Assembly: GCA_027315135.1 (NCBI GenBank) | Contig: DAHUYR010000016.1 | Location: 1-37,988 of the forward strand | Direction: 5' to 3' | Origin: Microcaldota archaeon | GTDB taxonomy: Archaea; Micrarchaeota; Micrarchaeia; Micrarchaeales; CABMGC01 | Length of the DNA stretch: 37,988 nt | Shown here: positions 3 to 37,477 of the stretch, piece by piece | Numbering within the stretch: position 1 is the first letter of the stretch | Layout: each line of letters starts with the position of its first letter | Notes under the pieces: generated by a model | Databases searched by the model: none | Seen by the model: the letters and a program-made list of their open reading frames with translations, nothing else | Told to the model about the DNA's origin: nothing | Program-made: the position numbers and the translations under genes

Positions 3-461
3 CCTTCAGGAGCATATGCTTACATATCAGGGCAGCTTTATGGTTTTCTTTCAGTTGATACTGCTACAAACCAGATATCATCTGTAAACATTCCGCAACT
101 GTTTATAGGCTCACAGGCTGCTGCTTTTTCTCCTAACGGGAATTATGCATATATGCTAGGCATGTCCAACGTGATTGTACTTAATACTGCAGGCTATGCT
201 GTTGTTAATTCAATAAGTTCGCCCCTGTTAAGTAGTATGATTTCCATGGGGATAACTCCTGACGGCAAGTATCTATATATTACAACATCAAACAACAATA
301 TAGAGATAGTGAATATAGCAACTGGCAAGGTAGTAAGCAGCATTACTTCTGGATTAAATTATCCGACAGGCATTGCATTTATGCCCAACGGAGCGGTTGC
401 ATACGTGGTTAACGATGGATCCTCAAATGTAGTTATAGTGAATACAGGAGGCTATAATTAA
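3..461 (+). CDS. YVTN beta-propeller repeat surface protein, C-terminal part (5' end outside window)
   Basis: Frame is open from base 3 (PSGAYAYISGQLYGFLSVDTATNQISS...) into ORF 153..461. Repeats such as SPNGNYAYM, TPDGKYLYITTSNNNIEIVNIATGKVVSSITSGLNYPTGIAFMPNGAVAYVVN match the YVTN/NHL-like propeller pattern. Confidence 0.8.
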   Translation, partial: PSGAYAYISGQLYGFLSVDTATNQISSVNIPQLFIGSQAAAFSPNGNYAYMLGMSNVIVLNTAGYAVVNSISSPLLSSMISMGITPDGKYLYITTSNNNIEIVNIATGKVVSSITSGLNYPTGIAFMPNGAVAYVVNDGSSNVVIVNTGGYN

Positions 462-3991: not shown

Positions 3992-4480
3992 TCAAGACCT
4001 TATTACTTTTGTAACAAGTTTTCCGTATATAAGGTTCTGGAACCCTGTGCGGGCGTCAGTATAATTTATTACCACAGACCCTGAAAACATAGAGTCTAAT
4101 TGTCCAGTAAATGGACCGGTTCCTGAATAGCAGGTTACTGCAAACGTGCTGTTTTCTCCGGCATTCATCGCTACCGGAGTAGCATATGTATGTATGTTTG
4201 CAGTGGTCTGATTAGTATTGCACCCCACCTGCGTGACTTGAATCGGATTGATGTTAGTATATTCTATATTAAGGAGTATCATGCCATTGCCGTAAAGGGA
4301 TTGTCCTATGCAGTTGAATCCAGAAGGCAATGCGCATATTGAAGATACATATGATGAGGGATTGAAGACATTTAACTCATAAAGTGATACGAGCACGACC
4401 CCTATGATTAGTATAGCCCATCCATAGGTCATCAAGTATTCCATCGCACTTTGTAGTTTATGCGCCTTTGGTTCTGACAT
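3992..4480 (-). CDS. archaeal type IV pilin-like protein (class III signal peptide)
   Basis: N-terminus KLQSAMEYLMTYGWAILIIGVVLVSLYELNVFN, typical archaeal pilin leader plus hydrophobic helix; near-identical N-terminus in CDS 24703..25257. Confidence 0.85.
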   Translation of the reverse strand: MSEPKAHKLQSAMEYLMTYGWAILIIGVVLVSLYELNVFNPSSYVSSICALPSGFNCIGQSLYGNGMILLNIEYTNINPIQVTQVGCNTNQTTANIHTYATPVAMNAGENSTFAVTCYSGTGPFTGQLDSMFSGSVVINYTDARTGFQNLIYGKLVTKVIRS

Positions 4481-7143: not shown

Positions 7144-8457
7144 TCATTGCAGGGTTCCCATGCCTTCTAGCCCTATCTTTTGCATGGCCTTGCCAGGACT
7201 GTCATAGTACTCTTTACAGAATTCGTTTATTCCGCGCAGGTCCCTTACGCCCATCTTGTTTAGAGTCTCGAGTATCTTCGCCCTTCTGTTTTCTTCGGCA
7301 ATAATCTCGTTTGGAGTGTAGCCTGAGAGCTTTGCCAGAGCATCCCTGTAGGTTATGCTAGGCAGTATTGGCGAACCCTTCCTGGTCCTGTAATCATACA
7401 GATAGAGATCTGAGAGAAGCACCTTTGTCTCTATCCCAGAGACCTCTGACATCTGCGTTATCCTTCTCTCGAAGCCCTTTTCCGAAGCTATCTGAGATAT
7501 GACCATCAGTGAATCTATCAGAGTTATTGCATTGCTGCTTATGCTCATAGGAGGCTGCTCCAGCCTGTTTACTATGTCTCTTGTTGTGCTTGCGTGTATG
7601 GTTCCGAAGACTATCTTTCCTATAGTCATTGCTGATATGAGGTCCTTTGCCTCGGCTCCTCTCACCTCTCCTATAATTATCATGTCAGGGCGCATTCTGA
7701 GAACGTTTTTCAGAAGGTCCTCAAGCGTTAGCTCCAGGTTTGTTTCCAGTCTTACGCAGTTTTCCTGGGTCTCGGTGTTAAGCTCATAGGTATCTTCAAT
7801 TACGACTATCCTTTCCTCAGGTCTGAAGAAGCTGAACATCGCGTTTAGGAGAGTGGTCTTTCCGCTTCCTGGGGTTCCGCCGAGGAGCAGGTTTGCAGGC
7901 CTCACCTTCAGTCCTTCAGAGTATAGCCATATCCTGGCAGCCAGATTATAGTTGAGCTCCCCGAAGTTTATCAGGTCTATTATACTGAATGCGTGCTTCT
8001 TGAAGTTTCGTATCGTGACGCTTGCGCCTCTTGGGGATTTCACAACGTTTGCCCTAGAACCGTTTGGCAGGTGTATATCGTATATGTGCTTGTTTGCATC
8101 GTTTGCAGTAGCATACATGTTGAGTTTCTTGACGAATCTGACAAGGGATTTCGGGTCCGAGAGCTTCTCCGTAACCTTCATCTCTCCTTCAGATCCTTTG
8201 TTGATGAATATGTTATCTGTGCTGTTTATCATTATGTCTTCTACCTGCTCATCCTTGAGATAATTGTTTATCGGGTAGAAGTCGTATGTGTCCTTTGCTA
8301 TCTTCTCTATCAGATCATGATCCGCGGAAGGGTTGAAGGTCTTTGCTATCTTCTCTATTGCACTGTAAAGAGATGCGTCGCCATATATATCTGCCATCTT
8401 TCCCTCTAGCTCCTCGAATATCCGCTCCTCGAAATCATAGAATTCTTCCTCGTCCAT
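7144..8457 (-). CDS. type II/IV secretion system ATPase (VirB11/TadA/archaeal pilus family)
   Basis: Walker A GGTPGSGKTTLLNAM, Asp box VVIEDTYEL, Walker B RMRPDMIIIGEVRGAEAKDLISAM, His box GTIHASTTRD. Confidence 0.92.
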   Translation of the reverse strand: MDEEEFYDFEERIFEELEGKMADIYGDASLYSAIEKIAKTFNPSADHDLIEKIAKDTYDFYPINNYLKDEQVEDIMINSTDNIFINKGSEGEMKVTEKLSDPKSLVRFVKKLNMYATANDANKHIYDIHLPNGSRANVVKSPRGASVTIRNFKKHAFSIIDLINFGELNYNLAARIWLYSEGLKVRPANLLLGGTPGSGKTTLLNAMFSFFRPEERIVVIEDTYELNTETQENCVRLETNLELTLEDLLKNVLRMRPDMIIIGEVRGAEAKDLISAMTIGKIVFGTIHASTTRDIVNRLEQPPMSISSNAITLIDSLMVISQIASEKGFERRITQMSEVSGIETKVLLSDLYLYDYRTRKGSPILPSITYRDALAKLSGYTPNEIIAEENRRAKILETLNKMGVRDLRGINEFCKEYYDSPGKAMQKIGLEGMGTLQ

Positions 8458-8595
8458 GCCAACCCTTAGATGAATTTTACTGATAATATTTTAGATAGCA
8501 AGTTTAATAATCTGCATTCTCGTAAGAAGCAGGCCTTGTGCCTGGCTGCACGTTAGTCTTTTTATTGTTTTAGCGTGAATCATTATTGTAATTGG

Positions 8596-10332
8596 ATGGA
8601 GATACTTAGATACGATATTGCCATATTGGGGAGCGGAATCGGGGGATTCACTTCTGCAATACATGCAAGTCATCATTCCGGCAGCAAGCTTAGGATAGCA
8701 GTGATATCAAAACTGCATGCAATGAGGAGCCATTCAGTTTCTGCTGAAGGAGGAATCTCAGGAGTCTTGTATCATGGAAAGGGGGATTCGGAAGATCTGC
8801 ATGCGTACGATACTGTAAAGGGGTCTGATTATCTTGCAGACCAGAATGCGGTAGAGCTACTTGTAAAGAATGCACCAAAAGAGATAAAATTCTTTGAGCA
8901 TATAGGCGTGCCTTGGAATAGAGGCGATGATGCCACCATACGTCAAAGAGCCTTCGGAGGCATGAGCATACCCAGGACGGTTTTTGCGGCTGACAAGACA
9001 GGGTTCTTCATGATGCGTGCTCTTTATGATTATACACTGCAACTGAAGAATGTAGATATTTTCCATGAGAACTTCGCAACTGCAATAATCATGAACAAAG
9101 GCAGGGCAGCAGGAATATTTATGATTGATCTTGCCACCAGTGAGATGAAGCTCATAGAGGCAAGTTCAATAATTATAGCGACAGGAGGCTTCGCGAAGGT
9201 ATATGGGTTTACAACGACTTCGCACTCCACTACCGGGGATGGCATAGCGCTTGCATACAAGGCTGGTCTCTCCCTCAAGGATATGGAGTTCGTGCAGTTT
9301 CATCCTACAGGTCTGATACCGAGCGGCATCCTGATAACCGAGGCTGCCAGAGGAGAGGGAGGTTACCTAAGGAATTCGGATGGCAGGAGATTCATGGAGG
9401 ATTACGCGAAAAGCCACATGGAGCTTGCGCCAAGAGACATAATATCAAGAGCGAGAATGACCGAGATAGCTAAGGGAAAAGGAGTTCTACATGGTGAATC
9501 CGGACTTGAACACGTATGGCTTGACCTGAGGCATCTTGACAAGGCGAAGATAGACGAGCGGCTTCCAATGATAAAGGATATCACGATAAAGATGCTTGGC
9601 ATCGACCCATCTAAGGAGCAGATACCGGTTAGGCCTGTTGCCCATTTCACCATGGGCGGTATAAATACAGACATTAACGGGCATGCGATGCTCAATGGAA
9701 AGAAGCATGCTGATGGCATATGGGCTGTTGGTGAGTGCGGATGCGTAAGCGTCCATGGAGCGAACAGGCTTGGTAGCAACTCACTCAGTCAGTGCGCAGT
9801 GTGGGGCAGGATAGTCGGGATAGAAGCTGCAAAGTATGCGGTTTCTGCAAGAAAGGCGGACAAGAAGGCACTACACATGCAGGCTGAAGAAGAAGAATTG
9901 AGAATAGGAGAGCTGCTTGACAGGAAGACAGGCAGCGATCCGTATAAGATACGAAAAGAGCTGAACAGCGTTATGGATTCAAATGTATATGTTTACAGGA
10001 AGACCTCGGAGCTGAAGAGAGCACAGGCAGCAGTAGCAAGGTTGCGGAAAGAGTGCGAGAGTATAGTAGTGAATGATAAGGGAAGCGTCTTTAATACAAA
10101 TCTCAGGGATGCGCTCGAGATATGCAATTTAGTGGAGCTTGCAGGAGTAGTGGTTGATGGTGCGATACGCAGGAAGGAGAGCAGGGGTGCGCATGCGATG
10201 GTCGAGTATCCGAAGAGAAATGATAAGGAGTGGATGAAGCATACGATAGCGGTTAAGAAAGGAAAAGGAATCAGCATAAGCTATTCACCTGTAAAGATCA
10301 CAAAGTGGCAACCGGAAGAGAGGAAGTATTGA
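8596..10332 (+). CDS. sdhA/frdA: fumarate reductase/succinate dehydrogenase flavoprotein subunit
   Basis: FAD-binding YDIAILGSGIGG, covalent FAD His region MRSHSVSAEGGISG, DTVKGSDY, DMEFVQFHPTG, TEAARGEGG, HGANRLGSNSL. ORF opens at 8575 (GTG); ATG at 8596 gives MEILRYDIAILGSG. Confidence 0.95.
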   Translation: MEILRYDIAILGSGIGGFTSAIHASHHSGSKLRIAVISKLHAMRSHSVSAEGGISGVLYHGKGDSEDLHAYDTVKGSDYLADQNAVELLVKNAPKEIKFFEHIGVPWNRGDDATIRQRAFGGMSIPRTVFAADKTGFFMMRALYDYTLQLKNVDIFHENFATAIIMNKGRAAGIFMIDLATSEMKLIEASSIIIATGGFAKVYGFTTTSHSTTGDGIALAYKAGLSLKDMEFVQFHPTGLIPSGILITEAARGEGGYLRNSDGRRFMEDYAKSHMELAPRDIISRARMTEIAKGKGVLHGESGLEHVWLDLRHLDKAKIDERLPMIKDITIKMLGIDPSKEQIPVRPVAHFTMGGINTDINGHAMLNGKKHADGIWAVGECGCVSVHGANRLGSNSLSQCAVWGRIVGIEAAKYAVSARKADKKALHMQAEEEELRIGELLDRKTGSDPYKIRKELNSVMDSNVYVYRKTSELKRAQAAVARLRKECESIVVNDKGSVFNTNLRDALEICNLVELAGVVVDGAIRRKESRGAHAMVEYPKRNDKEWMKHTIAVKKGKGISISYSPVKITKWQPEERKY

Positions 10333-10751
10333 TGGAGTTCAAATCAACATATGATACAAGAGGGAAGCAGAGGAATGTGCTCAGGCTAGCACATTTCGAT
10401 AAAGAGGGCCTTGCACATATACTCACGTACAGGATTCTTGCATTTCTTTCCATAATAACAGGAGCTACGGTTCTTTATGCAATCATGTCTGGCAGCGCGT
10501 CTTTCATGTCCATTGCAAAGGTGCTAGTTGCTATCGTGTGGCTGCTTTTTGGAATTGAACTGTACTCGGTTTACAAGGCATTCGGGATAATAGCTACAAA
10601 GGGAGTAGTCTTCGGAAGACTGAATGATTCGTTCATAAACTCTGAGGTGAAGACGAAGCCCTGGTACGGTGTTGTCAAGGCAGGAGGCCCGTTGCTGATA
10701 TTCGTATGGTATGCGCTCTTCGTAGTGTTTGCGGCAGTGGTTATGTTATGA
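10332..10751 (+). CDS. membrane anchor subunit of FRD/SDH (SdhC-like)
   Basis: Three predicted TM segments; ATG overlaps the flavoprotein stop (TGATG at 10330-10334); located between flavoprotein and Fe-S subunit genes. Confidence 0.7.
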   Translation: MEFKSTYDTRGKQRNVLRLAHFDKEGLAHILTYRILAFLSIITGATVLYAIMSGSASFMSIAKVLVAIVWLLFGIELYSVYKAFGIIATKGVVFGRLNDSFINSEVKTKPWYGVVKAGGPLLIFVWYALFVVFAAVVML

Positions 10752-11749
10752 GAAGAGATTCAAGATTCATGGTCTTCCTCTATGCAGGGATGGCGCTAGT
10801 GCCGCTCTTCTTGTTCCTGTATCTCGTGGCCGTAATAGCTTACGCTCCTGCAGAGGGTCTTATGCTCGGACTCGCAGCAGCATGGATGATAATATTCGGG
10901 ACATTTGGTTCTGTAGAGATATACAAACATGGTAGATTGCCTGCAGAACAGATGCCTTTGATCCCTGGACAGACTATGGCAAAGGACCTTGAATCCGAAC
11001 GCGGTAAAAGGCCAAAGGGAGCAGAACAGGTTACAGTAAAGATAAAACGCTTCAATCCCGATACAAAGAAATTTGATGAAGAATCATATGACGTTTATGA
11101 AGATAGGCTTGCTACCGTCCTGGACACTCTGCTTAAGATAAAGAGTCAGCATGACAATACCCTGTCAATGAGGTATAGCTGCCGAATGGGAATATGCGGA
11201 TCTTGTGGTATGGTGGCGAACGGGAAGCCGGTGCTTGCATGCGAGACAAATCTTCTTTCAGAGCTTGATGAAAATAAGAGTATAACTGTAGAGCCTATGC
11301 AGGGTCATCCTCTCCTCAAGGATCTTGTCACTGATTTTGACAGCTTCTTTGAGAAACATGAGAGCGTTGAGCCGCACCTGTACAGAAATGACAAGGCAGA
11401 GCAGTACTCAGCAGAGAAGGCGTACAGGCAGACGAGAAAACAGGTAAATGAATTCCTGCCGTACTCGTATTGCATAATGTGCGGGCTGTGTATGGACGCA
11501 TGCCCTGTGGTAAACTCTAATACGGAATTCGTTGGTCCTCAAGCCCTTTCCCAGGTATACAGATATTACAAGGATTCCAGGGACCAGGGTAGCAAGCGTA
11601 GATTGCTGGATGCAGATAATCTTCACGGAGCGTGGGGATGCGAGTTTTCAGGCTCGTGCTCCAAGGCATGTCCGAAGGGAGTTGATCCTGCTTCTGCAAT
11701 ACAGCTTCTAAAGGCTTCGATAATGGCAGATTTTGGTGAACAATTATGA
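10748..11749 (+). CDS. sdhB/frdB: FRD/SDH iron-sulfur subunit with N-terminal two-TM extension
   Basis: 2Fe-2S ligands YSCRMGICGSCGMVANGKPVLAC, 4Fe-4S CIMCGLCMDACP, CEFSGSCSKACPKGVDP; N-terminal TM helices MVFLYAGMALVPLFLFLYLVAVIAY and GLMLGLAAAWMIIFGTFG. ATGA overlap with the upstream stop. Confidence 0.93.
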   Translation: MRRDSRFMVFLYAGMALVPLFLFLYLVAVIAYAPAEGLMLGLAAAWMIIFGTFGSVEIYKHGRLPAEQMPLIPGQTMAKDLESERGKRPKGAEQVTVKIKRFNPDTKKFDEESYDVYEDRLATVLDTLLKIKSQHDNTLSMRYSCRMGICGSCGMVANGKPVLACETNLLSELDENKSITVEPMQGHPLLKDLVTDFDSFFEKHESVEPHLYRNDKAEQYSAEKAYRQTRKQVNEFLPYSYCIMCGLCMDACPVVNSNTEFVGPQALSQVYRYYKDSRDQGSKRRLLDADNLHGAWGCEFSGSCSKACPKGVDPASAIQLLKASIMADFGEQL

Positions 11750-13128
11750 GATACAGAAATGAGAGAGATGTACTTGGCAGTGTAAGAGTACCTGCTGACG
11801 CTTATTATGGCTCGGAGACAGTGCGCGCATACAATAATTTCCAGATATCAGGAATAAAGGTTGCCAGGGAGCTGATTTACGCATATGTGATTGTAAAGAA
11901 AGCAGCAGCTACGGCAAACATGAACATAGGCAAACTGGAGGTTAAAAAAGGTAAAGCGATAATCAAGGCATGCGATTACGTGCTCTCTGGAAAGCTTGAT
12001 GACAGCTTTGTGCTTGACGTGTTCCAGGCAGGGGCTGGAACAAGCATCAACATGAACGTAAATGAAGTAATAGCGAACAAAGCTATAGAGCTTCTTGGGG
12101 GCAGGAAGGGCAACTACAGGATTGTGCACCCTAATGACGATGTCAATATGTCCCAGTCTACCAACGACACCATGCCGACCGCTATGCGCATTGCAATCCA
12201 TCTTATGATAAATAAGTCTCTGCTGCCTGAGATGGATTTGTTAGTAGGAGCTATAGAGAAGAAGAGCAATGAATTCAAGTCGATAGTGAAGCTTGGTAGG
12301 ACGCACCTGCAGGATGCCGTGCCAATCAAGCTTGGAGAAGAGTTTTTAGCATACGCATATGCCGCAAAAAGCGCACATGCATATATAGAAAATGCTAATT
12401 CAAGACTGCTCGCGCTCCCGATAGGCGGGACCGCAGTGGGCACGGGGTTGAATGCAGGCAAGGAGTACAGGACTGCTGTCATCAAGGAGATTAGAAAACT
12501 TACACGAACAAAATTTTCGCTCGCATCGAGCCCGTTTGGACCTATGTCCAATAAGCTTGATGAACTTGAAGTCAGTGCTTCATTGAGGGAGTGTGCAACT
12601 GCGCTCAACAAGTTTGCCAACGATCTCAGGCTGCTTAATTCTGGTCCCAGAGGAGGCATAAACGAAATAAAGCTTCCAGAGGTGCAGCCAGGCTCATCGA
12701 TAATGCCAGGGAAGATAAACCCGAGCATGGCTGAGATGATGAATATGGTATGCTTCCAGGTTATCGGAAATGATCTGACGATAAGTGAGGCTGCAAACGC
12801 AGGGCAGCTTGAACTCAATGTCTACATGCCAGTCATAGCATTCGATCTGCTGTTCTCAATAAGCATACTCTCAAACGGAGTAGCAGCCTTCAGGGAAAGA
12901 TGCGTCAAAGGCATAACCGCAAACGAGGCGAGAATAAAGGAGAACCTGAAGAATGACCTGTCCATAGCTACCGCACTTACACCGTACATAGGCTATGCAA
13001 AGGCAGCAGAGATTGCAAGAAAGGCGCTGGTGCAGGGGAAGAGCATCATGCAGATATGCCTGGATATGAAGGTAATGGATAAAAAGAAACTGGAAAAGAT
13101 ACTTGACCCTAGGAATGCGGTGAAATGA
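11746..13128 (+). CDS. aspA: aspartase/fumarase superfamily lyase, aspartate ammonia-lyase type
   Basis: Superfamily signature GSSIMPGKINP; GAGTSINMNVNEVIANKA, GRTHLQDAVP, CFQVIGNDLTISEAANAGQLELN. GAGTS is the aspartase form; class II fumarases usually have GSGTQ. ATGA overlap with the Fe-S subunit. Confidence 0.82.
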   Translation: MRYRNERDVLGSVRVPADAYYGSETVRAYNNFQISGIKVARELIYAYVIVKKAAATANMNIGKLEVKKGKAIIKACDYVLSGKLDDSFVLDVFQAGAGTSINMNVNEVIANKAIELLGGRKGNYRIVHPNDDVNMSQSTNDTMPTAMRIAIHLMINKSLLPEMDLLVGAIEKKSNEFKSIVKLGRTHLQDAVPIKLGEEFLAYAYAAKSAHAYIENANSRLLALPIGGTAVGTGLNAGKEYRTAVIKEIRKLTRTKFSLASSPFGPMSNKLDELEVSASLRECATALNKFANDLRLLNSGPRGGINEIKLPEVQPGSSIMPGKINPSMAEMMNMVCFQVIGNDLTISEAANAGQLELNVYMPVIAFDLLFSISILSNGVAAFRERCVKGITANEARIKENLKNDLSIATALTPYIGYAKAAEIARKALVQGKSIMQICLDMKVMDKKKLEKILDPRNAVK

Positions 13129-24702: not shown

Positions 24703-25257
24703 TTATGTTACCTTTACTATCAGTGTTGCAACCTTCACAGCATTCATTGCATTGTTTGGAGGGTTTTGCGAGGTACTATAGTTCAGCCATATGTATCCTG
24801 AGAACTGGCTGCCTATTGAGTTTCCACTCGTGAACTCGGCTCCAGGAACCTGGAAGTAGACCTGCTGCTCTCCTCCTGCTACAAGTGCGCAGTTTCCTCC
24901 GCTTGAGCACATGTTTGTGTTTGAGGATAATGAAGATGCTACAGGGAAACCTGAAGAGGTTGCTCCTGCACTCTGCGGCGCAACACTAAGTATTGCGTTG
25001 TAGACTGTTGATCCACCGTTTTGGCCGAATGTTAATCCGACTAGCAGATTACCTGCATTGGCACCAGTTTCTGTTACGGCTGTCTGGTTAGTACATATGT
25101 AACCTGAAGCTGCTATGCATGACGGATGTAGGAATGCGCTCCCATTGAATACTCCAAGAGCATACAATGCTACTAGCACTATGGCAATAACTAATATTGC
25201 CCAACCATACGTCATGAGGTATTCCATTGCGCTTTGCAATTTGAAATTTTTACTCAT
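24703..25257 (-). CDS. archaeal type IV pilin-like protein (class III signal peptide)
   Basis: MSKNFKLQSAMEYLMTYGWAILVIAIVLVALYALGVFN. ORF opens at 25320, but the ATG at 25257 fits the leader; TATA-like TTTAAATA lies about 37 nt upstream. Confidence 0.87.
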   Translation of the reverse strand: MSKNFKLQSAMEYLMTYGWAILVIAIVLVALYALGVFNGSAFLHPSCIAASGYICTNQTAVTETGANAGNLLVGLTFGQNGGSTVYNAILSVAPQSAGATSSGFPVASSLSSNTNMCSSGGNCALVAGGEQQVYFQVPGAEFTSGNSIGSQFSGYIWLNYSTSQNPPNNAMNAVKVATLIVKVT

Positions 25258-25457
25258 ATCCGCACCTAATTCTATTGATAGATAATTAATAAAGTATTTA
25301 AAGCTTACTAGCAGAGGCACTCTCCTCTAAAAGATTTGGAGCGCAATATGTAGCAACAGCTTGTGCTAAAATAGTTTTAATAATTCTGTTTCCGCATATT
25401 TAGTTTATAGTTCAATATTATAGCCAAGGTAAGATAGTTATTTGGTTAAATTCAGAT

Positions 25458-29700: not shown

Positions 29701-32700
29701 TCACTTCCTTAAGCCATGATGTCTTCCCTTTCTTCTGTAAAGCGTAAATGCAATAAGCCCAGCTACAACAACTGCAGCTATTATTATCTCAAAAATAGGT
29801 GTACTGTTGCCCGCCTCTCCTGCAGCGTTGGAATTTAATGAATTCTGGCTTCCTATGTTTGTCGCGAAGATGCCAACTGTGCCATTGTTTGGAGTAGCAA
29901 AACTTATGCTACATGGGTTCTTCGTAACAGTGGCATTGTATATCTGCTTCCAGGTGCCATTCTCCAGTACAAATGGAATTATGGTCTGATTTGAGGAAAG
30001 GCAGTTATATTCAATTGTAACGTTTGTCTTGAGAGCAGTATGTGACAATGTGTTAAGAGAGTAAGTGAATATTTTGCTGTATCCTGGCGGCTGGGTCTCA
30101 CTCCCTGTCACGTTTGATACTGATATGCTTACCGGCTCTGATAGCGTCGAATTCTGTTTAAGCAGGACAGTCATGTTATACATTGGGAACTTTACCGTGG
30201 TGGTCTTGTTATACGTTACATTAACATGAGCTTTTACTATATTTGTCAGGTTCAGTGGTTTTGTAATGTTCTTTGTGGCATTGCCCGGGCCAGTTCTCCT
30301 GCTGGAATTGTTTGATATCGTGTTTGAAGTACTAACATGCGTCATGTTTGCAGTCGTTACGCTATTGTTGGCAGGCTGACGTAGTGACAGCGCATATATT
30401 GACTGTAGGGATCCGCTATGGTAGAAGACCGTGCTTTGATTACAGGCAGTTCCATAACCAAGTCCCACCACATAGTAGTGGTAAGTATAGCTATTGGTGC
30501 TTATTGCAATGTTGCATGCAAAGCTAATATTGATTGGAGATGGTGCAGTTATGGTCACAAGCAGTTCATCCTGATTGTAACTGCGTCTTGTTCCGTTTGC
30601 GACAACTATAAATGCAGGTGCAGCTGATGGCAGTTTTGTTCCCAGATTGTCCAGGAGAGTAAGCTGTTCGCTCTGAGAACCTGATCCTCCGCCACCTTGA
30701 GTTGAAGTAGTCGTACTGGAAGTGCCATTTGCATCTACAGCTACGTTGGTCGAATTGAATATATAAGTGGATTCTGTTCCTGTATCAGTTGCTACTGCAT
30801 TGAAGGTATATGTTCCTTCATAAAGGTGTACAGGTCCCAAGGCAACGTTACCTGCAGAGACTCCTGAAGCAGTATAAACAATCGTTCCGTTTGGTTCCTC
30901 AAGCTCTACATTGTAAGGACCTGTGCCTCCGCGTATGTAAGCATTAAATGTGGCCAAACCGTTGATTGGAACAAGTGCATTGTTAGGCGTCAGCACAATT
31001 GTAGGGTCTGCGTTTATGGTTATAATGTCGTTCGCTGAGGAGCTGCTAGCCGGGGTGTTTGCACTGTCTGTTATTGATAGCACTGCATTGAAAGTGCCTG
31101 CACCCAAGTATGCGCTTGACACTGTTATCCCATTTGATGTTGTGGAGAGCCCAGAGTATAAAGAGTTGTACTGAAGTGCAGAGTAATCAAATATGCTCCA
31201 GTTGGCAGCGTATGGCCGGGTGCCTCCAAGCCATGAATCTGAGAGACTTATTTCTTGGCCAACGTCATATGCTGGATTTGATGGCGAAATTCCTGATACG
31301 GAGAGGGCAGGGTTTACTGTTATCGAGGACTGTGCAGAACATGTTGATACGGCTGTGCTGGCAGAATCGTTTGCGAGTACCACGTAGTTACCCGAGGATA
31401 CTGGTGAAAATGTGTAAGTAGGTGCCACTGCGTTGGCTATGATATCTAAGGTAGTGCATGCAGCAGGAGTGCCTTTGTACCATGCATACGAGTAAGGCTG
31501 TACTCCGTTAAATGTAGTGGATGTCAGAGTCACCTGCTGTCCACTGTCTATTGTTTCTGAAATCGGAGCTATAGATACTGAAGGTACATTGAAGACGTTA
31601 TATGCCATGCTTTTGTGCGCTACAGCATTGGATGATAGATCCGTTACCTGCACATTTGCAGTCCAGCTGCCAACAGCGTTGGCGTTAATAATAATTGAAT
31701 TCAGAGTCCCTGAGGTTGTAAACAGTGAGTTGTATACTAATTGATTAGAGGGATTATATACGACGTAATTATAAGTATAAGGTCCTCCGCAGCCTACCAC
31801 ATTTACGGTTATTACTTGGTACTGTCCCGTATCAAGTACTGCGTTGGAAGGTGTTTCCGACATAGATATTGACGGACAGACAACAAAAGCTAGTGATGAT
31901 AAGAAGTTTCCTTTACTGCTGGCTGAGTCGCTTACTGCCACATTTGCAGTGTATGCTCCGGTGGGCCAGGCTGAAGTAGATGAGAGCAGGAATGCAAATG
32001 AATTTGAGGTCGATGAAGTAGAATAAATAGCGTTTGTCATCACCGTGCCGAGCGCGTTATAGATAATGAAATTGTAGGTGTAAGGAGCCGCTCCGCCACT
32101 AATGCTGGAAGTAAGCACGTCATTCTGTGGAGGCGATGGGATAGAGTTAGATATACTGAAGGAAAGTGGATGTAGGAAGGAATCTGCAGTATATGTTATT
32201 GAATTCTGCACCGTGTTTATATCGTTGTCCGTGATAGAATACATAATAGTAAATGTCCCAGCCCCCCATGACTTAACCTGCTGGAAGGTGTAGCTGTTTG
32301 TCGTGGCAGAAGTTGTTATTGAATTTGAGCTCATCAGTATTCCAAGGCTATTATATACAAAATAGTTGTATGTGTATGGAGGAGCGCCCCCGACTACTGT
32401 TGCTAAAGCCGTCTGGTACTGATTTGAATCGATTATCGCATTGCTCACCGAGGTGCTTGAAAGAGTAAACGCAGGGTTTACTGTAACAGCATCTTGTGTC
32501 GAACACACGGTTGAAGCAGTTGTTGCAGAGTCAGTTACCTCGTATGTGTAAGTGTTGCTAGTCGTCGGAGTTACCGTAATGGTAGATGATGTTTGGCCGG
32601 CAATCACATTTGCCACATTGCAGTTTGGATTGCCCGCACTATTTGTGTACCAGGCATATGAAAATGGTGCTTCTCCACCTGAAGGATTTGCCTTGAGAGT

Positions 32701-35700
32701 CACAGACTGGCCGTTGTCTATTGCAGGTGATTGAGGAGATATTGCTCCTGCAGTAAGGGAATTCCTTCCAGTATAAGCTATGCTATTTGTGGAGCTCATA
32801 GTGTGAGAGCTTGAATCGGTTACTATCAGATTCACAGTATATGTTCCAGATCCCGTACCCTGCGCAAAGGCGAATGAATTTGAGGATAAGGATACATCGG
32901 AGTAAAGGGCATTGTTAACCTCCGCTCCTGAAGGGCCGTATACGAGAAAGTTATACGTATATGGGCTGGTTCCTCCGGAAACGATTGCAGTAATCACCTG
33001 CGTTTGACCAGCATCAATAACGGAATTTGATGCTTGTAATTCTGAAGAAGTCAGACCCACTGCAGGTATGACTATCGCAACGTCTTCAGGATTTGATACG
33101 CCTGCAGAGACAGATCCTACTAATGAATTGGTTGTTGTGTTGAATATCGATACGTCCCCATTGTAATTTACAACATATGCAATTCCGAGGGTTGATGAGA
33201 ATGAGACACCTATTGGACTAGAAAAAGAGGATGGGCTTAGTGTGTTGCTTAGTGAATTTGTTGCAGTATCAACAATGTAGAGCTTGTTCGGAGCGTCTCC
33301 AACAATATATGCGAATGTTCCTGAAGGTGAGAAGGCAACGCCTACCGGATCATTGAAGCTGCCGCTGACGGAGTTTACCACCGTATTGCTTGCAGTGTTT
33401 ACTATGACTACGTTGCCATTGCCGTTATTATAATTGGTAACGTATGCGTAGGTGCCGGAAGGGGAGAAGGCGACCCTGTAAGGACCGCTCAGTCCCGAAG
33501 TGATGGAACTAATCACAGTGTTGGTTGCAGTATTGATGATTGCAACATTGTTTGAATCATAATTGGTCACATAAGCATAGGTGCCGGAAGGTGAGAATGC
33601 AACCCCGAAAGGAAAACTTACGCCAGCATATATGTTGCCGACAACAGAGTTTGTTGCCGTGCTTATTATTGACAGGCTGCCACCGTTGGTGACATATCCA
33701 AATGTTCCTGATGGGGAAAAGGCTATACCGCGTGGGTTGTTGAAGCCCGAGTTTATAGTGCCGACAAGTGCGTTTGTTGCTGTGTTTATTATGACAACCC
33801 TGTTGTTCAGCAACTCCGTTATGTATGCAAAGCTCAGAATCTCTGGGCGTGCCACAGTATAAATCGTATTGCTATAGATAGAATTTGCTATTTCATTGGT
33901 TGTTGCCGAATCAGTTACAACCACATTTGCTTCGATAGAATTTGCACCCACGCTTGTAGGTATCGTGTACGCCAGCGCGTTTGAGTTGAGGCTGCTGATT
34001 ACAGAGATGCTGCTGATTATGGCTCCTGTCTGCACATTTGCAACTATGAAGTTGTATGTATACGGAGAGGTTCCGCCAACCACGTTTGCTGTAAACATGA
34101 TTACGTTGCCTGTTTCAATATTTGCTGGGAGGAGTATATTTGATGTGAGCACAGGCGTCGAGAGGGCAGGACTGATCAGTATATTAGAGGTATACCCTGA
34201 AGACATACTATTTGTAGAAGAATCTGAGGCAAAGACATTTGCAACAACCGGTGAGTTTGAAGTCCATAGCGAATTTGTTTGAATAGTTGTAGAGAAAGTG
34301 GGGCTGTTTTGAATTAGCGTGTTGCTGTACAGCAATATTCCAGGCGAGATTTCGTTAGATACAATAATGTTAACAGTATAACTTGGAACCCCTCCGTTTA
34401 TTGTTCCTCCGAACGTTATGTACTGCCCTGCATCGACTAGTGTATTTGATACTGAAGGAGATGGAACAGAGAAAGCATTGCTAATCTGTGCCGTACCGTA
34501 TGTAGTGCCTGGGAGTATGTTGTTTGGAGGGTTTATCCTGCTCCTGAACCATTGCGCTACAATTGAATTGCCATTATTTGCATAAACTATAGGATATGAA
34601 GAGGAAGGCGTAGCCGCGCTTCCTGTCGATTCCTCTTGCGTGTAATTTATGGTGGCTGTAGCAGTGGTGCTTTGCCAGGTAACGGTAGCAACGTACGGAG
34701 CGTTTGGGTTTTTAGTTCCTTTTACATTAAAACCGCTTCCTGAATTGACATAGACCAATTCTAACTCCGGAGGCGTGCCGCCTCCCACTCCTGCAAATGC
34801 GCCATTCCCTGTAATGCCCCACCACCCGGCATTTGTGCCTGATGGTATCTGTGTACTCCAGCCTATGAGTTTATCCACGTTTGGAGTATTTGATATTATG
34901 AAGCCGTCTAATACTTTACCCACCGGATTCGATTGTAAGTTATTGTAGAGTGCAGCACTCTCGCCGCTTGCTGGAGATAATGTAATGCCATTATTTATTG
35001 AAATGCTGCCAGATGTTCCTGTAAATGTCCAACCGGACGGAGCTGAAGATGAAACGCCGCTGAAATTGATATAGAGATTGAATATCGCTGCTCCATTGTC
35101 GTATTTGCCGTAGGTACTGGTGAGTTGTGGTGCTTCGCCGGTATCGCTTCCATCCATTAAGGTATTTTCCGTGGTGACAACGTTCCCAGCCCAACCCAGA
35201 TAGACAGTATTGGTTGTTGCTGTACCGGTGTTTGCTGGCAGAAAAGTGTTTGCAGGTATGGATACCCAATAAAGTACATTGGAAGACGCAGAAAGTGCAT
35301 TTGTAGATAGTGACGATGTGCAGAGTGCATTTGCAGTCTGTTCGTTGATGATATTGCCTTCCATCCATGACTTGGCAATGGTTCCGTTTGCAAAAAAGAA
35401 GATTCCGTTATTGAGGCTGCACGTTTCGTACTGCTGGTATGCAAGTGCGTTGAATCCTATTACGTTGCCTGTAATTGAGTTTACTGTTCCTATTGCGATT
35501 GGTGTGTTTGCTGCAACCGCAGTTGATTGATAATTAGTAAGTGTAATTGGCAGATATGCAGCAGTGGCTATAAACGTTGTGCTGTTGGTTGCCTGAGAGG
35601 TAGCATTGGTTACAATAACGTTGACATTCCACCTGCCTGGAGAGGCCAGATGCAGATTGAAGGTAAATGAGTTGGATGTGCTGGACAGCCCAGTATAAAG

Positions 35701-37086
35701 CGCGTTGAATGCAAGTGCTCCGTTTGGATTATACACAAGAAAATTATAAGTATAGGGACCTACGCCTCCAGCTGTTATTGCATTTACTGTGTCGGAATTC
35801 GCATTATACAATACCTCATTTGAGATGTATGCAGATGCAGTTAGATGTCTGGTCACCTGCCCGAAAGTTGTTCCTGGAAGCACATAGTTAGGAGGAATTG
35901 CCCTCTGCCTTACCCACTGAAAGGTAATGTAAGAACTGGTCGAACCTCCCCAGTTTGTTCCGAGGACGAAGTTGGCTGTAGTAAATGAAGGTATAAGTGA
36001 GGTACTTGTAGCGCTGGCTATGAGCCCATAATCGAAGATACCGTTAAACGAAGAGGTTGAACTAAGTGTTTCAGATAAAGTAACTGGGTAGGCATATAAC
36101 CCTCCGTTTATGTTTGATGTGGTGGTTCCTCCGCTTGCTGTTACAACCTCTACATTTGGCCCAGCATGCAAGCCTGCAAAGACAAAGTTCGGTCCCCAAT
36201 CAGTTGTCCATAAATCAGAACTTGCAATTGGGGATGGTGTTATGAAAACCCCTGAATCGTGTCCGTCTACGCCAGCCGTGCTGAAAGGTATCATTGCCTC
36301 TATAAAGTAGCCAGCCACATTATAGGCACTTTTGCTGGGAAGGCCGCTGGAAGATGATCCACTCTCAGTTAGTGTCATGGAGTTTGCAACGATAGGACTC
36401 GCCCCTACGCCTGTGCCCCATATGTTTAAATTGAGTGCTGAACCGTTGAAGTTGTCATAAAACCCGTTGGCCCCGAATACTAGCTTCCCGTTGTCGTATG
36501 CCGCATACCGATTCGCAGCAGTGCATCCGGATGTCGTTAGAGTATTTGTATTTGCACATGAGAGCTCTGGCGCCTCGCCAGTATTTACGCCATCGAAAAG
36601 GGTGTTTGCACTACTCATTACATTTCCCGCCCACCCGAGGTAAAGCGTATTCTGTGCAGGTGTGCCGCTGTTGGCTGCGAGGAAGGTGTTCGTAGGTATC
36701 AACACCCAGTATAGTACATTCGCACTAGAGGATAGTGCATTCGGGGAGTTTGAGGATGTGCAGAGTGCATTTGCAGTCTGTTCATTGATGATATTGCCTT
36801 CCATCCATGACTTGGCAATACTGCCATTTGCAAAGAAGAACTCTCCGTTGTTCAAATTGCATGTTTCGTACTGCTGGTATGCAAGTGCGTTGAATCCTAT
36901 TATGTTGCCTGTAATTGAATTTACTGTCCCTATTGCAATTGGTGTGTTTGCTGCAACCGCAGTTGACTGATAATTAGTAAGTGTTATTGGCAGATATGCC
37001 ACTATGTTAGCCGGCACTGTAACTGCGTAAGATATGGCTGGGCAAAGCAGCATAAGTAAGGCCAAGTATGCTAGTGGCTTGCTCAT
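29701..37086 (-). CDS. 2461-aa modular surface protein: duplicated N-terminal DUF2341/lectin-like module, YVTN propeller, about 11 Ig-like repeats, C-terminal TM anchor
   Basis: Signal MSKPLAYLALLMLLCPAISYA; YLPITLTNYQSTAVAANTPIAIGTVNSITGN occurs twice; YVTN blades (SGTYAYVTNYDSNNVAIINTATNTVISSITSGL); recurrent GGxxPYTYNFxVYN; C-terminal IFEIIIAAVVVAGLIAFTLYRRKGRHHGLRK. Shine-Dalgarno GGAGGTA (37094-37100) upstream. Confidence 0.92.
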   Translation of the reverse strand: MSKPLAYLALLMLLCPAISYAVTVPANIVAYLPITLTNYQSTAVAANTPIAIGTVNSITGNIIGFNALAYQQYETCNLNNGEFFFANGSIAKSWMEGNIINEQTANALCTSSNSPNALSSSANVLYWVLIPTNTFLAANSGTPAQNTLYLGWAGNVMSSANTLFDGVNTGEAPELSCANTNTLTTSGCTAANRYAAYDNGKLVFGANGFYDNFNGSALNLNIWGTGVGASPIVANSMTLTESGSSSSGLPSKSAYNVAGYFIEAMIPFSTAGVDGHDSGVFITPSPIASSDLWTTDWGPNFVFAGLHAGPNVEVVTASGGTTTSNINGGLYAYPVTLSETLSSTSSFNGIFDYGLIASATSTSLIPSFTTANFVLGTNWGGSTSSYITFQWVRQRAIPPNYVLPGTTFGQVTRHLTASAYISNEVLYNANSDTVNAITAGGVGPYTYNFLVYNPNGALAFNALYTGLSSTSNSFTFNLHLASPGRWNVNVIVTNATSQATNSTTFIATAAYLPITLTNYQSTAVAANTPIAIGTVNSITGNVIGFNALAYQQYETCSLNNGIFFFANGTIAKSWMEGNIINEQTANALCTSSLSTNALSASSNVLYWVSIPANTFLPANTGTATTNTVYLGWAGNVVTTENTLMDGSDTGEAPQLTSTYGKYDNGAAIFNLYINFSGVSSSAPSGWTFTGTSGSISINNGITLSPASGESAALYNNLQSNPVGKVLDGFIISNTPNVDKLIGWSTQIPSGTNAGWWGITGNGAFAGVGGGTPPELELVYVNSGSGFNVKGTKNPNAPYVATVTWQSTTATATINYTQEESTGSAATPSSSYPIVYANNGNSIVAQWFRSRINPPNNILPGTTYGTAQISNAFSVPSPSVSNTLVDAGQYITFGGTINGGVPSYTVNIIVSNEISPGILLYSNTLIQNSPTFSTTIQTNSLWTSNSPVVANVFASDSSTNSMSSGYTSNILISPALSTPVLTSNILLPANIETGNVIMFTANVVGGTSPYTYNFIVANVQTGAIISSISVISSLNSNALAYTIPTSVGANSIEANVVVTDSATTNEIANSIYSNTIYTVARPEILSFAYITELLNNRVVIINTATNALVGTINSGFNNPRGIAFSPSGTFGYVTNGGSLSIISTATNSVVGNIYAGVSFPFGVAFSPSGTYAYVTNYDSNNVAIINTATNTVISSITSGLSGPYRVAFSPSGTYAYVTNYNNGNGNVVIVNTASNTVVNSVSGSFNDPVGVAFSPSGTFAYIVGDAPNKLYIVDTATNSLSNTLSPSSFSSPIGVSFSSTLGIAYVVNYNGDVSIFNTTTNSLVGSVSAGVSNPEDVAIVIPAVGLTSSELQASNSVIDAGQTQVITAIVSGGTSPYTYNFLVYGPSGAEVNNALYSDVSLSSNSFAFAQGTGSGTYTVNLIVTDSSSHTMSSTNSIAYTGRNSLTAGAISPQSPAIDNGQSVTLKANPSGGEAPFSYAWYTNSAGNPNCNVANVIAGQTSSTITVTPTTSNTYTYEVTDSATTASTVCSTQDAVTVNPAFTLSSTSVSNAIIDSNQYQTALATVVGGAPPYTYNYFVYNSLGILMSSNSITTSATTNSYTFQQVKSWGAGTFTIMYSITDNDINTVQNSITYTADSFLHPLSFSISNSIPSPPQNDVLTSSISGGAAPYTYNFIIYNALGTVMTNAIYSTSSTSNSFAFLLSSTSAWPTGAYTANVAVSDSASSKGNFLSSLAFVVCPSISMSETPSNAVLDTGQYQVITVNVVGCGGPYTYNYVVYNPSNQLVYNSLFTTSGTLNSIIINANAVGSWTANVQVTDLSSNAVAHKSMAYNVFNVPSVSIAPISETIDSGQQVTLTSTTFNGVQPYSYAWYKGTPAACTTLDIIANAVAPTYTFSPVSSGNYVVLANDSASTAVSTCSAQSSITVNPALSVSGISPSNPAYDVGQEISLSDSWLGGTRPYAANWSIFDYSALQYNSLYSGLSTTSNGITVSSAYLGAGTFNAVLSITDSANTPASSSSANDIITINADPTIVLTPNNALVPINGLATFNAYIRGGTGPYNVELEEPNGTIVYTASGVSAGNVALGPVHLYEGTYTFNAVATDTGTESTYIFNSTNVAVDANGTSSTTTSTQGGGGSGSQSEQLTLLDNLGTKLPSAAPAFIVVANGTRRSYNQDELLVTITAPSPINISFACNIAISTNSYTYHYYVVGLGYGTACNQSTVFYHSGSLQSIYALSLRQPANNSVTTANMTHVSTSNTISNNSSRRTGPGNATKNITKPLNLTNIVKAHVNVTYNKTTTVKFPMYNMTVLLKQNSTLSEPVSISVSNVTGSETQPPGYSKIFTYSLNTLSHTALKTNVTIEYNCLSSNQTIIPFVLENGTWKQIYNATVTKNPCSISFATPNNGTVGIFATNIGSQNSLNSNAAGEAGNSTPIFEIIIAAVVVAGLIAFTLYRRKGRHHGLRK
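35315..35559. repeat. about 245-bp direct repeat, copy 1 (partner 36755-36999)
   Basis: Aligned by eye without gaps at an offset of exactly 1440 bp; roughly 20 mismatches counted. Confidence 0.85.
36755..36999. repeat. about 245-bp direct repeat, copy 2 (partner 35315-35559)
   Basis: Same alignment as copy 1. Confidence 0.85.
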
Positions 37087-37093
37087 TACACGA

Positions 37094-37100
37094 TACCTCC
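37094..37100 (-). promoter_or_regulatory. Shine-Dalgarno GGAGGTA of the 2461-aa gene; TATA-like ATTTATATCC at about 37121-37130
   Basis: Reverse strand reads ATTTATATCCTTAACATAACAAGGAAATATGGAGGTATCGTGTAATGAGC. Confidence 0.6.
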
Positions 37101-37477
37101 ATATTTCCTTGTTATGTTAAGGATATAAATATTGCCATACTCCTGCAGATGAGTGTGTGCGAGTGCAATTTGATCTGATTTGCACAACCACTTCAGGCTC
37201 TCTCCGACTTTCATTCTTTGCAATATTTAACTGCTCTGGGTAATGCTGCATAAATTATAATAATACAGTATCCGTGTTTCAGGTTGGATTTAGATATCAG
37301 ATTAGGTTGTAGTCTTTTGGCAGTTTTGCCATGCTTTTCCTGCTACATAAGTCATAATTATTCCTTTTTGGAAGGTTTTACATCTGGAAGCAGATAGCTC
37401 CTAGAGGAAACGTTGAGTTTCCGCTTAAGTTCCCATTGACATACAAGTATGCCATTATGAAATATGTTTCAGAATTC

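Follow-up and report, generated by a model that had tools for sequence, protein, structure and literature searches.

Large surface proteins built from PKD and YVTN domains have already been described in Micrarchaeota (PMC5498576), so the class of protein examined here is not new. In the ARMAN-2-related micrarchaeon Mia14, such proteins combine PKD domains with YVTN/Kelch propellers and CARDB-like modules, and cell-cell contact has been proposed for them (PMC5498576). YVTN and PKD domains also occur in surface-layer proteins of Methanosarcina, represented by the solved propeller 1l0q. The giant SPEARE-type proteins of nanohaloarchaea, which are DPANN symbionts, carry a signal peptide, a propeller, a long Ig array and a transmembrane (TM) helix followed by a cytosolic VirB4/TraG-like ATPase, and are proposed to bind the host (PMC10266531). 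The VARTIG proteins of Thermococcales are likewise large, with several Ig domains and traces of recombination (PMC8416519).

The gene described here lies in a window (the whole stretch of DNA analysed, 37,988 nucleotides) on contig C27 of a Micrarchaeota metagenome-assembled genome (806,683 bp in 50 contigs, 88% complete); the source archaeon is tiny and probably symbiotic in lifestyle, and those relatives that bear a name are contigs of Candidatus Micrarchaeota LSA5.bin54. A single open reading frame (ORF) of 2461 codons, with no internal stop, occupies positions 29701-37086. The initial annotation had these coordinates right, as well as the share of about a fifth of the window (19.4%), but the strand is corrected here to minus, the gene running from its start at 37086 to its end at 29701. 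Read from the sequence, a TATA-like box (TTTATATC; 37122-37129) lies about 40 nt upstream of the ATG at 37086 and a Shine-Dalgarno motif (GGAGGT; 37095-37100) 8 nt upstream of it, the two together spanning 37095..37129, likewise on the minus strand. By translation and hydropathy, the product starts with a Sec-type signal peptide (residues 1-21, cleavage AISYA/VTV; 37024..37086) and ends with a TM helix (residues 2431-2449; 29740..29796; hydropathy 2.68) and a basic cytoplasmic tail of 12 residues (RRKGRHHGLRK; 29704..29739); the signal peptide (about residues 6-24) and the TM helix are its only two hydrophobic stretches. The ectodomain has few charged residues, with 4.0% acidic and 1.9% basic residues against 10-16% of each in cytosolic neighbours, and Ser, Thr and Asn make up 37% of it. 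Reading the product as a modular surface protein, as first proposed, is well supported.

The architecture established by alignment, all of it on the minus strand, begins with module M1 (residues 22-410; 35857..37023), a DUF2341-type domain with a beta-rich region after it. Next come Ig/PKD-like domain 1 (35572..35856), a second DUF2341-type module, M2 (residues 506-867; 34486..35571), recognised by its alignment to M1, Ig/PKD-like domains 2 and 3 (33862..34485), a YVTN beta-propeller (33082..33849), Ig/PKD-like domains 4-11 (30736..33075), and a sequon-rich juxtamembrane region with a conserved C-terminal domain (29812..30735), for which family scans and sequon counts were used as well. M1 (about residues 30-410) and M2 (about 510-865) are homologous, with 94% amino acid identity over the first 71 residues and 80% DNA identity over 438 nt (35122-35559 vs 36562-36999); judged from these alignments, their likeness is that of an internal duplication or conversion. 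The propeller scores 84.4 bits against TIGR02276 (cut-off 27.85; E 3.7e-24), with four stretches matched, and it matches the solved Methanosarcina YVTN surface-layer propeller (PDB 1l0q, E 2e-39); six blades can be counted by eye, in agreement with the initial annotation. The eleven Ig/PKD-like repeats, also the number first estimated, stand among the other modules as a single domain, a pair and a run of eight and have a conserved G-G-x-x-P-Y / D pattern in common. On the whole protein Ig_3 reaches 36 bits (Pfam cut-off 30) and PKD_4 23.3, below its threshold of 27; the separate domains are mostly without a Pfam match, or match Ig_3, SprB or PKD weakly. All 16 Cys of the ectodomain occur in even numbers inside single modules (with pairs 76/109 and 177/188 in M1, and 1489/1528, 1737/1766 and 1877/1916 in Ig/PKD-like domains 4-11), which fits disulfides formed outside the cell.

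M1 and M2 had been labelled DUF2341/lectin-like modules. The DUF2341 model of Pfam (PF10102) has no match in the full protein, in its modules or in its own genome, the window copy being below Pfam detection. The model does match three of 25 homologues of the M1/M2-type module in other genomes, and an hhalign comparison of the module profile with one built from 14 DUF2341 domains that Pfam recognises gave a probability of 100 and an E-value of 5.8e-42 over 162 columns, with a common core TGEAP-x-LS...YD-x-G...VF. On the basis of these relatives and this alignment, M1 and M2 are DUF2341 domains at the level of homology, visible through relatives only. The lectin part of the label is unproven: there was no Pfam or PDB sequence match between the module and a ConA/LamG-like lectin domain, and a PDB profile search using the N-terminal module found nothing. 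Structure prediction by segments, which had been suggested as a check, yielded AlphaFold models with confidence too low to interpret for both the N-terminal module (pLDDT 34) and the C-terminal region (pLDDT 47).

A conserved domain makes up the last ~300 residues; in it Y231, N247 and W250 (segment numbering) are invariant in 18 relatives. Neither Pfam nor NCBIfam has a model that matches it at useful scores; a known archaeal C-terminal sorting domain was considered for the C-terminus and rejected, as the two libraries gave scattered weak matches only. A Foldseek comparison of the low-confidence C-terminal model with the PDB gave no match at E <0.001 and was discarded. We found the domain in 56 genomes, which come from the two families of this order (146 genomes sampled), with one marginal match outside. 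Missing from the Pfam and NCBIfam scans made here, it is a marker for the whole repertoire in this order.

Set against the published description of the Mia14 proteins, ours has in common that it is a secreted modular protein of Micrarchaeota with PKD-fold and YVTN domains, from a repertoire whose share of a small genome is a few per cent; it differs in its N-terminal DUF2341-type modules, its defined C-terminal domain and its sequon partition (below), and no CARDB match was found in it. Its propeller resembles by sequence that of the Methanosarcina surface-layer proteins, but its flanking modules and anchor do not, and no likeness of lattice is implied. Unlike SPEARE-type proteins, it has only the 12-residue basic tail behind the TM helix and no VirB4/TraG-like ATPase, which places it outside that group. 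It also falls outside VARTIG, as its C-terminus is a conserved non-Ig domain and the adjacent downstream ORFs are short and, by inspection, not Ig-like.

The initial annotation treated the protein as a singleton; instead, it belongs to a lineage-wide expansion, with at least 13 family loci on ten contigs of its own genome and relatives in 69 of the 79 genomes of the taxonomic family. The Ig model matches only the two families of the order in which the C-terminal domain occurs (117 genomes sampled from the class). The 13 loci encode 2461, 1500, 1375, 1309, 1288, 1203, 832, 793, 615, 364, 321, 312 and 152 amino acids, and together they take up ~37.6 kb (~4.7% of the assembly); since contig ends cut seven of the 13 copies, the real lengths must be larger. 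The paralogues differ in module order. At its left edge (3-461, plus strand) the window holds a truncated propeller gene that belongs to this family too, and the end of contig C27 matches that of C30 (G000:C30:1-205) in inverted orientation (94% over 205 nt), a sign of assembly breaking inside propeller repeats. A relative at G013:C5 has an open frame of 5658 amino acids with ~33 Ig-like domains; its distal sequons number 31, against ~130 expected.

N-glycosylation sequons (N-x-S/T) are distributed very unevenly along the protein. The distal part (residues 22-2117, 2,096 residues) contains much Asn, Ser and Thr but only 12 sequons where shuffling predicts 54 (z -7.4), and an estimate that preserves dipeptides agrees (12 observed vs 52). 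The mirror motif S/T-x-N occurs 70 times in the same part, and the other spacings stand at 63 vs 57 (N-[ST]) and 49 vs 58 (N-x-x-[ST]). By contrast, the last 308 residues before the membrane (2118-2425) have 21 sequons vs 9 expected. Family-wide, with confidence intervals from bootstrapping over proteins, sequons occur at 0.27 times expectation in Ig domains (CI 0.18-0.41), 0.53 times in the DUF2341 module (CI 0.41-0.66) and 1.71 times in the C-terminal domain (CI 1.47-1.99). The corresponding ratios are 1.68 (1.44-1.98) for other secreted proteins of the same genome and 0.92 (0.82-1.02) for its cytosolic proteins; genes for these controls were taken by simply choosing the longest ORFs, and composition and hydropathy, rather than a trained predictor, decided the class of each.

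To correct for repeat consensus, we permuted residues within alignment columns (300 shuffles). Sequons remained depleted in Ig domains (73 observed vs 205 expected), in the DUF2341 module (100 vs 145) and in the propeller (13 vs 24), with none of the 300 shuffles as low in any of the three, and went in the opposite direction in the C-terminal domain (168 vs 134); as the aligned domains are related by descent, these counts overstate significance. The mirror motif was at or slightly above expectation, and N-P-[ST], which cannot be glycosylated, was above it in Ig domains (35 vs 22). The eleven Ig domains of the window protein alone gave 5 vs 18. For the propeller, we set aside the raw ratio of 0.15, since the mirror motif is low too and the value mostly reflects repeat consensus; depletion there is taken only from the column shuffle and from YVTN repeats of bacterial plasmids, which show none (23 vs 22.4). 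Homologues of the Ig array were sought on plasmids as a further control, with no match. A sister family in the same order has a weaker but clear depletion (81 vs 133.5), although its NP[ST] count lies below expectation too (4 vs 9.9), and some family members, such as the C1 and C11 copies, are not depleted. Taken together, the counts support active avoidance of sequons in the distal domains, indicating selection. To our knowledge, such a domain-wise partition is undescribed in the literature searched; avoidance of sequons by archaeal proteins or by adhesins had no precedent there, which does not prove that none exists.

A candidate oligosaccharyltransferase of the STT3/AglB family (PF02516, 31.9 bits vs cut-off 24.5) is encoded at G000:C24:7907-9001. 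Because its WWDYG motif is divergent rather than canonical, we infer N-glycosylation in the source archaeon mainly from the sequon enrichment of its other secreted proteins. The C-terminal ectodomain of this 926-residue candidate is itself full of N-x-S/T sequons.

On the simplest reading, which we consider reasonably probable, the protein is an anchored surface protein with a glycosylated stalk and an unglycosylated, contact-making arm, belonging to an order-wide micrarchaeal family. It would be exported by the Sec pathway as a type I membrane protein and held at the membrane by its C-terminal TM helix and basic tail; the conserved, probably N-glycosylated juxtamembrane domain would raise the distal domains off the cell, and the arm would consist of about eleven Ig/PKD-like domains, the six-bladed propeller and the two DUF2341-type terminal modules. 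The arm may be kept free of glycans because it touches other proteins, the likeliest contact being adhesion to archaeal partner cells or the shared matrix, with paralogues supplying differing combinations of modules. The candidacy for adhesion or host contact put forward in the initial annotation is plausible and agrees with earlier proposals (PMC5498576, PMC4858521) and with the sequon pattern; we infer an adhesin role in contact with partner cells, although no binding partner can be demonstrated from sequence. More broadly, archaea of this order may sort N-glycosylation by domain, with sequons stripped by selection from exposed Ig, propeller and DUF2341 domains and enriched in the membrane-proximal domain and the remaining secretome, so that these symbionts show bare binding arms on sugar-coated stalks; this we advance tentatively, as possible rather than probable. 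For the study of how DPANN symbionts recognise hosts and hold on to them, sequon counts offer a genome-only route to the bare, likely contact-making parts of giant surface proteins. The model also yields a clear glycoproteomic prediction. Against a contact arm stand the non-depleted family members, the non-canonical WWDYG motif and the fit of the data with a packed structural layer.

The main alternative to cell contact as the reason for a bare arm is indeed that the protein is densely packed in an envelope layer. The protein would then be S-layer-like, its beta domains packed side by side and glycans excluded as obstacles to packing rather than for the sake of cell binding. Tight packing would suit the exclusion of sequons, the closest solved relative of the propeller is a surface-layer protein, and an S-layer is present in Micrarchaeum harzensis (PMC8975820); however, one genome holds many paralogues of varied module order and length, unlike a single lattice protein, and we regard this reading as unlikely, if worth keeping in view.

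Exchange between paralogues is suggested by a group of three family genes in tandem (G000:C40 9858-20781), the first of which is 86.5% identical in DNA to the C21 copy over 742 nt at the C-terminal end and ~78% identical upstream. Together with the duplicated N-terminal module (94% over 71 residues), this would suit a VARTIG-like variable protein for recognition or conflict, in which recombination among paralogues serves self/non-self discrimination. That reading is improbable, as the hypervariable C-terminal Ig domain and linked downstream Ig genes of such a system were not seen, the C-terminus is the conserved end of the protein and the relatives are lineage-wide.

For other archaeal DUF2341 proteins a role as adhesin at the pilus tip has been proposed, which is very improbable here: archaeal type IV pilus loci do contain DUF2341 proteins (PMC4858521), and by eye the window encodes a type II/IV secretion-type ATPase (7144-8457) as well as two short proteins whose signal peptides are of class III, the pilin type (QSAMEYLMTYGWAIL; 3992-4480 and 24703-25320; all on the minus strand), but the 2461-residue protein has its own TM anchor and the ATPase gene is ~21 kb away. 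A chimera of repeats made in assembly, which the initial annotation named as grounds for refutation, can scarcely be credited: the family does break assembly, as the seven cut copies attest, but up to residue 2020 each of the 14 module junctions is bridged by five or more alignments to ORFs of other genomes (the weak spot being the Ig11/C-terminal boundary at ~2117, spanned by one weak alignment only), no exact internal repeat reaches 45 nt and GC is even across codon positions.

Elsewhere in the window, a row of genes resembling those for succinate dehydrogenase/fumarate reductase subunits and for a fumarase was recognised by eye at 8575-13128 on the plus strand.
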